64,000 bases of DNA from Pedobacter insulae. GTDB taxonomy: Bacteria; Bacteroidota; Bacteroidia; Sphingobacteriales; Sphingobacteriaceae. Shown in pieces: positions 34,678 to 36,557 of the stretch. The stretch covers positions 310,001 through 374,000 of the forward strand of contig NZ_FOPP01000002.1 of NCBI RefSeq assembly GCF_900113525.1. The letters are read 5' to 3'. The notes below the pieces were generated by a model that saw only the letters and a program-made list of their open reading frames with translations, was not told where the DNA came from and searched no databases. Positions within the stretch are counted from its first letter, which is position 1. Every line of letters begins with the position of its first letter. A program made the translations under genes and the position numbers.

Positions 34678-34764
34678 GGAGGGATGCCTGAGTGGCCGAA
34701 AGGAACAGTTTGCTAAACTGTCGTACTGGCAACGGTACCGAGGGTTCGAATCCCTCTTCCTCCG
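34678..34764 (+). tRNA. tRNA-Ser(GCT)
   Basis: An 87-nt serine tRNA. The acceptor stem pairs GGAGGGA with TTCCTCC, the anticodon GCT is in the loop of a stem CAGTTT/AAACTG, the T arm is GAGGG-TTCGAAT-CCCTC, and a long variable arm (GTACTGGCAACGGTAC) marks class II. It reads AGC/AGT codons. CCA is not encoded. Confidence 0.93.
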
Positions 34765-34815
34765 CTGCTTATAAAATCGAAAGGTTTTATAACATTTAAA
34801 AGATCGATACCAGTT

Positions 34816-34889
34816 CGGGGTGTAGCGTAGCCCGGTATCGCGCCTGCTTTGGGAGCAGGAGGTCGTAGGTTCGAATCCTGCCACCCCGA
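34816..34889 (+). tRNA. tRNA-Pro(TGG)
   Basis: A 74-nt proline tRNA. Acceptor CGGGGTG pairs with CACCCCG, anticodon TGG sits in CCTGC-TTTGGGA-GCAGG, and the T arm carries GTTCGAAT. The CCA end is not encoded. It shares a transcript with tRNA-Ser (about 51 nt gap). Its 3' end is duplicated downstream beside an integrase, so it is probably an integration target. Confidence 0.94.
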
Positions 34890-34890
34890 C
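34874..34890. repeat. att-like direct repeat, copy within tRNA-Pro 3' end
   Basis: The 17-nt sequence AATCCTGCCACCCCGAC covers the end of the T arm and the acceptor stem of tRNA-Pro. The identical sequence occurs at 35052-35068. Integration of mobile elements at tRNA 3' ends leaves exactly such duplicates, with the integrase gene near one of them. Confidence 0.7.
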
Positions 34891-34895
34891 AAACG

Positions 34896-34924
34896 AAAGC
34901 CCCGATTTATCGGGGCTTTATTGT
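34896..34924 (+). terminator. Terminator after tRNA-Pro
   Basis: AAAGCCCCG and CGGGGCTTT form a stem around ATTTAT, followed by ATTGTTTT. It closes the tRNA transcript. Confidence 0.85.
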
Positions 34925-35051
34925 TTTCAGGAAGTGCCAAGCTCGCTTGAAGCACGAACTGTAAGCAACAAAGCAAGCTTCGACGAAGGAGAAGCGGGGG
35001 CTTGATTTTGCGCTAAATTCCCTCCCCAGGATCACCGAGCGTAGCGAAGGT

Positions 35052-35068
35052 AATCCTGCCACCCCGAC
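35052..35068. repeat. att-like direct repeat, second copy
   Basis: An exact copy of the last 17 nt of tRNA-Pro plus one base, lying 178 bp downstream of the first and 236 bp before the integrase start. The flanking bases differ on both sides. The 160 bp between the copies have no gene; they hold a hairpin (arms AGGAT..ACC and GGT..ATCCT) around GAGCGTAGCGAAG. Confidence 0.65.
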
Positions 35069-35092
35069 CACATAGCGTGCAAACTCTATTAA

Positions 35093-35127
35093 AAACCCTC
35101 TAATTACATCAGTTAGAGGGTTTTTTC
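35093..35127. terminator. Rho-independent terminator
   Basis: CCCTCTAA and TTAGAGGG pair around a short loop, with A-rich left and T-rich right flanks. It stands between the att-like repeat and the integrase and would insulate the integrase from the tRNA transcript. Confidence 0.8.
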
Positions 35128-35303
35128 GTTTAAGTCATATCACGATAGAGTAACCAAAACCAAAGAAAATTACCCCTATTTAACACCCTGTTCTTTCTTC
35201 CTATACTTGTCTTAATATTTGAATTAAATCATCCATTTGATACACTTTGACTTGCACACCAGTTAAAACGGTAGAAAAGGGTAAGAAAAAAGAAAGGGAT
35301 TTT

Positions 35304-36557
35304 ATGAAAACGCAGCACACCTTCACAACATTATTTTTTCTGAAGAAGGACAAACAAACAAACGGCAACGCTCCCCTGTACGCCAAGATCACCGTCAATG
35401 GACAGTTCACCCATCTATCCGCAAAACGTCGGCTAGCCATTAGCGACTGGAACCAAAAGCAACAAAAAATCAGCGGAGACTCAGACCACCAAAATGACGT
35501 CCGTGAAAAAATGCGCACACTTTCCGGCGAGATCAATCAAGCCTACGACGAAATCCGCTACGCCAAACAGCCCCTTACCGCCGAAGCCATTAAAGCCAAG
35601 GTCGAAGGCACCGACGAGCAGCAGCACAGCTTAAAAGACCTGCTCGACTATCACAACCAAGAACTTGGCAAGCTCCTCTCGGAGGGCACCATGAAAAATT
35701 ATTACACCTCCGAACGTTTCCTCTATGAATTCCTTCAAGCCAAGCGTAAAAAGAAAAACCTCATCCTGGCCCAGCTGGATTATAAGTTCATCACCGACTT
35801 CGGTCTGTTCCTCCGTCTGCGTACCCCTGACAAGGGGCAGCGTCCCTGTACCAACAATACGGTGATGAAGCATATGGAACGCTTGAAGAAACTCATCGGA
35901 ATCGCAATCAAGAATAACTGGATGAGCCATGACCCTTTCGAGAATTTTAAAAGGCACATGGTCAAAAGGGACAGGGAGTCGCTAGACGAACAGGAACTGC
36001 AACGTTTTGCTAACGCCATTGTTTTTGCCCCTGGGCATCTTATCGTACAGGATATGTTTCTTTTTAGTTGTTATACGGGCTTAGGTTATGCGGAGGTCTG
36101 CCGTTTTAACTTGTCGCATTTGTCAAGGGATAAAGACGGGAATATGTGGCTGGAAATGACCAGGAAAAAAACGTTCAGTACCACCGAGCAGAAGTTTCAG
36201 GTGCTGCTTTTGCCAGAGGCGTTGGAGTTGATTGAAAAGTATCAGAACCATCCAGTGTCTCTTCAAGGGGGCGTGGTATTTCCGTTTTATTCCAATCAGG
36301 TGACTAATCGCTATATTAAGTTAATTGTGCAAGCCGCTAAGATTGAGAAGAAAGTAAGTTTTCATACGGCTAGGCATACGTTTGCGACGACCATTACTTT
36401 GGAGAATGGGATTTCTATAGAGAGCGTAGCGCATATGCTGGGGCATGCGAGTATTCGTACGACGCAGATTTATGCGAAGGTGAGAATGAAAAAGGTGGCG
36501 AACGAAATGTTGGCGTTGCAGAGTAAAATGCATCCAAGAGTTAAAATGGTGGGGTAA
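35304..36557 (+). CDS. Tyrosine-type site-specific recombinase (Bacteroidetes integrase)
   Basis: A 417-residue integrase. An N-terminal arm-binding domain (TLFFLKKDKQTNGNAPLYAKITVNG) and a SAM-like core domain precede the catalytic part. The late catalytic residues are clear: HTARHTF (HxxR), LGHASIRTT and the tyrosine in TQIYAKV. The first catalytic arginine is missing: the site reads TGLGYAEV with glycine, as known for IntDOT-like enzymes of Bacteroidetes. The frame is open from a TTG at 35247, but the ATG at 35304 fits the family start. The 5' half is clearly richer in C-ending codons than the 3' half. Confidence 0.9.
   Translation: MKTQHTFTTLFFLKKDKQTNGNAPLYAKITVNGQFTHLSAKRRLAISDWNQKQQKISGDSDHQNDVREKMRTLSGEINQAYDEIRYAKQPLTAEAIKAKVEGTDEQQHSLKDLLDYHNQELGKLLSEGTMKNYYTSERFLYEFLQAKRKKKNLILAQLDYKFITDFGLFLRLRTPDKGQRPCTNNTVMKHMERLKKLIGIAIKNNWMSHDPFENFKRHMVKRDRESLDEQELQRFANAIVFAPGHLIVQDMFLFSCYTGLGYAEVCRFNLSHLSRDKDGNMWLEMTRKKTFSTTEQKFQVLLLPEALELIEKYQNHPVSLQGGVVFPFYSNQVTNRYIKLIVQAAKIEKKVSFHTARHTFATTITLENGISIESVAHMLGHASIRTTQIYAKVRMKKVANEMLALQSKMHPRVKMVG

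Follow-up and report, generated by a model that had tools for sequence, protein, structure and literature searches.

The 178 bp that separate two copies of a tRNA-Pro 3' end in Pedobacter insulae probably form a gene-less repeat unit of the tRNA tail, built in the manner of the RtT repeats of Escherichia coli and turned over at the tRNA end, with an island placed at the copy of the tRNA end (the echo) in which the unit terminates. The window, i.e., the whole stretch of DNA that was analysed, comprises 64,000 nucleotides (C13:310001-374000) of a genome of 4.39 Mb; the features that are given by position in it lie on the plus strand, and coordinates given without a contig name are counted from its first nucleotide.

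The sequence AATCCTGCCACCCCGAC occurs at 34874-34890 and at 35052-35068, exact in both places and with a start-to-start spacing of 178 bp, as the initial annotation had it; by chance, 0.01 matches to a 17-mer are expected in the window when up to two mismatches are allowed. The first copy consists of the last 17 nucleotides of an intact tRNA-Pro(TGG) at 34816-34890, which was found by ARAGORN and scores 67.1 bits with the Rfam tRNA model. Beyond the right-hand border of the window, where the initial annotation proposed to look for a third copy, there is indeed an exact one (C13:387296-387312), which ends a second intact tRNA-Pro, and also a fourth with one mismatch (C13:387474-387490), so that the spacing is again 178 bp. 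From this follows that 306 bp are repeated 42.4 kb apart. When the two regions are compared by BLASTN, 34786-35090 and C13:387207-387512 are seen to be a direct repeat, identical in 297 of 306 positions (97%), that flanks a 42.4-kb segment at both ends. The repeat extends from about 30 bp upstream of the tRNA-Pro to 22 bp past the second 17-mer and contains the tRNA-Pro, the 178-bp unit and the start of the arm on the integrase side, and the mismatches between its copies are mostly found in the final part, from about C13:345015 on. The right-hand echo is followed by a relic of the integrase arm, and another such relic is present in genome G094.

The unit itself (34891-35068) contains no genes, and its parts follow each other in a fixed order: a terminator-like hairpin directly 3' of the tRNA (AAAGCCCCGATTTATCGGGGCTTT, 34896-34919, seen in the sequence and in the fold), a quasi-palindrome, a C-tract, a terminal hairpin and the echo. 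The terminal hairpin (35027-35058) reads CAGGAT[C]ACC - loop - GGT[A]ATCCTG, and its 3' arm, which it has in common with the echo, leads into the copy of the same tRNA's own 3' end. It is the best-conserved portion of the unit, covaries in relatives, and is the basis of the covariance model R1. Fold z-scores differ from unit to unit, from about zero to -9.5, and the unit in the window is a weak case with -2.7; when it is folded as a DNA strand, the z-score is weak as well. In its own genome the unit has two copies, each behind a tRNA-Pro, and among the 30 tRNA loci examined there no echo was detected behind other tRNAs. A dispersed repeat of REP type was considered as well and rejected, because these two copies, both at tRNA-Pro, are the only ones in the genome. 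Across 146 genomes, the strict hairpin pattern occurs beside tRNAs only. No description of such units was found in the open-access papers, a set that does not include the older tyrT papers.

Related units lie behind tRNA-Pro in several other Pedobacter genomes (G016, G035, G036, G037, G041, G063, G075 and G094), with an echo spacing of 184-188 bp where the echo is intact and, in G035, with four unit copies in tandem. In the family as a whole, the covariance model of the terminal hairpin finds matches in 72 of 401 genomes, which belong to 13 of the 25 genera, and several contain arrays. A same-strand tRNA lies within 1.3 kb of 71 of the 97 matches mapped in fetched DNA, and all these tRNAs are Ser or Pro: Ser TGA in 27 cases, GCT in 11 and GGA in 5, Pro TGG in 24 and GGG in 4. 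For single units, the distance from the tRNA end to the hairpin end is mostly 153-181 nt. Echoes of 16-19 nt are present behind Pro, Ser TGA and Ser GCT, while many Ser units have a partial echo or none. The remaining 26 mapped matches have no tRNA inside 1.3 kb; some of them are near contig ends and some at apparent island ends, where, for instance in G001, G050 and G249, a unit without tRNA carries a core-like copy on each side.

Several further arrangements were encountered at such loci. Genus g16 has echo units of a second type (GGATGAGAACC...GGTTCGA...GGGGCTGAACCAATCCC..., at L343, L352, L364 and L268), which precede or follow the first type in a stack behind tRNA-Ser. In G134, G019 and G013 (L295, L313, L314 and L328-L330), a tRNA-Ser(TGA) with its unit is found in several copies scattered on one chromosome, many of which continue into a similar short sequence (ATTGGAGGATA...). 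About 240 bp past the first tRNA-Pro at L026 of G005 there is what looks like a broken tRNA copy, a sequence similar to tRNA-Pro in which a short hairpin (TCCCGAAACTTCGGGA) interrupts the T-loop. The double cores seen in genus g14 were excluded as echoes, since they come from complete tRNA-Pro(TGG) genes in tandem, 166-179 bp apart, at L240 (G351, which has four) and at other loci of that genus.

The closest known system is the RtT repeats at tyrT and tyrV of E. coli. For a long time these tRNA-Tyr tail repeats have been regarded as a peculiarity of a single locus, and it has been proposed that a stable RNA is processed from a transcript that they share with the tRNA. In strain K-12, tyrV is followed by three exact repeats of the 19-nt 3' end of tRNA-Tyr, at +178, +356 and +534, and each unit has one inverted copy; these repeats are covered by the annotated rttR (b4425) and by the Rfam family RtT (RF00391). 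In both systems, gene-less units stand behind a tRNA and each closes with a repeat of the 3' end of that tRNA (exact in both, with 17 nt in the window and 19 nt in E. coli), the period is 178 bp, an inverted copy of the tRNA end lies inside the unit, and tandem arrays occur. The differences are that the tRNA is Tyr in one case and Pro or Ser in the other, that the inner sequence is not the same, and that the unit in the window, unlike RtT, starts with a terminator-like hairpin. A search with the Rfam RtT model, which gives 133-138 bits for the E. coli repeats, returns no match for the window unit at E<=5 and none for three relatives' loci at E<=1, and the unit is therefore built like RtT without being a member of that Rfam family. 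Of the second unit type of genus g16, which shares GGATGAGAACC...GGTTCGA with E. coli, one unit matches RtT over its full length but below threshold, with 26.3 of 45 bits. Since an RtT-like architecture is thus present in 13 genera of a phylum other than that of E. coli, where it follows tRNAs for Ser and Pro and offers natural pairs of presence and absence, its origin and function can now be tested.

Such pairs, in which an empty and a filled site can be compared precisely, exist at three orthologous loci. In the first, the flanks on either side of one tRNA-Pro are about 86% identical between G045 and G063; in G045 the terminator comes directly after the tRNA-Pro, while in G063 there are an extra 186 bp with a 20-bp direct repeat. 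The other two are orthologous tRNA-Ser(TGA) loci of G412 and G346, with upstream DNA that is 96-97% identical, and here a unit of 167-168 bp is distributed reciprocally: at locus A it is present in G412 only, and at locus B, directly behind the tRNA, in G346 only. Precise gain and precise loss would account equally well for each case, and the pairs, which carry no direction, therefore do not separate the two. Because the unit is a quasi-palindrome with a direct repeat of 17-20 bp at its flanks, we propose that recombination or slippage, acting precisely at the sequence of the tRNA end, adds, removes and multiplies units, and that correction of the palindrome or selection on the fold keeps the inverted copy matched to the tRNA. 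The start of the unit would then serve as a replacement terminator and its end as a spare tRNA 3' end, and from this would follow that integrases are offered a second attB, by which the tRNA is spared.

The presence and absence of units with a flanking repeat of 17-20 bp is also what one would see if they were true mobile cassettes of MITE type, which a tyrosine recombinase would carry in trans from one tRNA 3' end to another, perhaps with a folded single strand as its substrate. The tandem arrays, the units at apparent island ends and the near-identical units on the two tRNA copies in each of G000 (the genome of the window), G028 and G037 agree with such movement as well. However, the pattern is no different when a palindrome between direct repeats is lost precisely, a tRNA and its unit may have been duplicated together, and insertion of an island between a tRNA and its unit would explain the units without tRNA with no need for unit mobility. 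Furthermore, no dedicated recombinase was identified, and several unit-bearing genomes have no close integrase, which makes mobility of this kind a possible but rather doubtful explanation. Short modules in tandem behind a fixed site, with a hairpin that includes the site, also bring integron cassette arrays and MITE-like mini-elements to mind, a resemblance only, but the present units differ from integron cassettes in that they have no genes and in that no integron integrase was identified: scored with the model for that enzyme, the recombinase adjacent to the unit in the window reaches 53.2 of 265 bits. In its widest form, the proposal is that gene-less palindromic cassettes move between Ser and Pro tRNA 3' ends, with the tRNA end as insertion site and the folded hairpin as donor, that they multiply the attachment sites for larger islands, and that E. 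coli tyrT is a distant case of the same; this we put forward tentatively.

That the unit is instead kept for a function in RNA, being co-transcribed with the tRNA and processed, or controlling termination and 3' ends, as proposed for RtT, would fit with that precedent, with the location on the same strand as the tRNA in a narrow range of distances, with the strong folds in several species (z from -6.7 to -9.5 in G063, G028 and G037) and with covariation in the terminal hairpin. In 16 units, pairing in this hairpin is kept in 94.2% of cells, a share that does not exceed 46% once the partners are slid, and both sides have changed in three of its pairs; on 119 distinct matches, covariation is above that in shuffles and slid controls, to be read with caution as this alignment was fitted to the model. 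Yet correction of the palindrome could yield the same covariation without selection on RNA, a terminator-like hairpin stands between the tRNA and the remainder of the unit, the presence in 72 of 401 genomes is patchy, there are units at island ends without a tRNA, and the fold of the window unit is weak, so that we regard maintenance by RNA function as unlikely.

In the preferred reading, where the unit is a tRNA-tail repeat, the adjoining integrase would come in as a user of the unit rather than as its source. Its open reading frame runs from 35247, with a likely start at the in-frame ATG at 35304 (35304-36557), i.e., 236 bp past the second copy, where the initial annotation had placed it. 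It carries the Pfam domains Phage_integrase (1.1e-21), Phage_int_SAM_5 and Arm-DNA-bind_5, and within the genus it has 17 relatives, which are 44-55% identical to it. In the named relatives that keep their upstream DNA, a short arm comes straight after the tRNA-Pro 3' end and leads on to the integrase; it contains a terminator-like repeat, which reads AAAAACCCTCTAAAT...ATTTAGRGGGTTTT or close to it. In the window, an arm of the same type with its own terminator-like repeat (35069-35130) comes directly after the second 17-mer, from which we infer that this copy is the attL core and that the 178 bp are extra. The unit was also considered as a part of the integrase's own attachment region, a possibility rejected because the arms of the relatives abut the tRNA directly. 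In G126, the same order of tRNA, arm and integrase is found, and core (CTGCCACCCCGAC) and arm come a second time 33.4 kb further on, which reads as a canonical tandem pair, and the end of that element bears no likeness to the 178-bp unit.

These comparisons decide what remains of the initial annotation, which took the double site for the scar of an integration at the tRNA. Its view that integration took place at the tRNA-Pro gene is borne out by the Pfam domains and the comparison of arms: tRNA-Pro is an integration hotspot, and the integrase has a canonical attL arm. Borne out as well are the further copy on the right and the alternative that something small and separate is trapped between the copies, for the 178 bp are a conserved, structured and gene-less repeat that also stands behind Ser and Pro tRNAs in many genera. 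What does not hold is the double site itself as a scar of this integrase: the arm of its closest relatives sits directly on the tRNA 3' end without a unit, and in other species, G016 and G063, there are tRNA, unit and echo without an element and without an integrase of the family at E<=1e-60 (the unit-bearing G036, G075 and G094 are likewise listed without one at this threshold). The idea that integrases of this family integrated in tandem or in a nested way, with the 178 bp as the remnant of an earlier element between attL and attR, draws on the two cores around the unit, the terminator at its start as in integrase arms, the tandem pair in G126 and the arm relics after the right-hand echo and in G094, but the conserved units of other genera largely refute it and it is very improbable, as a common length, hairpin and C-tract would not be expected of remnants that arose independently in 13 genera and at five tRNA types, and as units exist in genomes without this integrase and differ from the element end in G126.

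The attL arm, which abuts the tRNA elsewhere, abuts the second copy here, and this suggests that the element probably used the echo (35052-35068) as attB, i.e., that a tRNA-Pro integrase would have put its island into the echo and not into the tRNA. With arm-binding, SAM-like and catalytic domains encoded beside a core that matches a tRNA end, with a canonical attL arm and with a variable region, the element is like other tyrosine-recombinase islands at tRNA 3' ends. It is unlike them in that an echo, 178 bp away from the tRNA, serves as its putative attL core, and in that the only distal cores, at C13:387296 and 387474, are parts of another tRNA-Pro, complete and with its own unit, and not of a bare 3' fragment. 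This second tRNA-Pro with its unit, after the 42.4-kb segment, could be another ready-made landing site, which fits the growth of the region to 168 kb. Units may in this way supply extra attachment sites, and an apparent scar of integration beside a tRNA can turn out to be such an independent unit, which bears on how the boundaries of islands are called.

On the left, the conserved genes end with a tRNA-Ser(GCT) at 34678-34765 (ARAGORN), ahead of the variable region; synteny with G016 and G094 runs to the gene before it and resumes at C13:512956, and the right-hand tRNA-Pro is therefore inside the variable region, which takes up 35069-64000 of the window and continues to C13:512956. The variable interval measures about 168 kb here, compared with about 28 kb in G016 and about 25 kb in G094, and no proteins common to the interval here and in these two genomes were detected. 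The phosphoesterase flank was rejected as a marker for the empty island site, because it belongs to the variable region itself and nothing related to it occurs in the genus. Among the scanned proteins of the 42-kb segment, a subset of its open reading frames, there are no conjugation genes; the scanned genes encode an erythromycin-esterase family protein, SusD-like and TonB-plug proteins, a metal-transport ATPase, a multicopper oxidase, carotenoid-type enzymes and LutB-type proteins. The named relatives that share the order tRNA-Ser, tRNA-Pro, tRNA-Pro are Pedobacter, and many of the genomes of the genus that were examined have two tRNA-Pro genes in tandem, 122-131 bp apart. Outside the window, two further tRNA-adjacent integrases are present in the same genome as the window, G000 (C3:91706-93232 and C12:145410-146942), at a tRNA-Lys(TTT) and a tRNA-Asp(GTC), about 250-260 bp beyond each tRNA.
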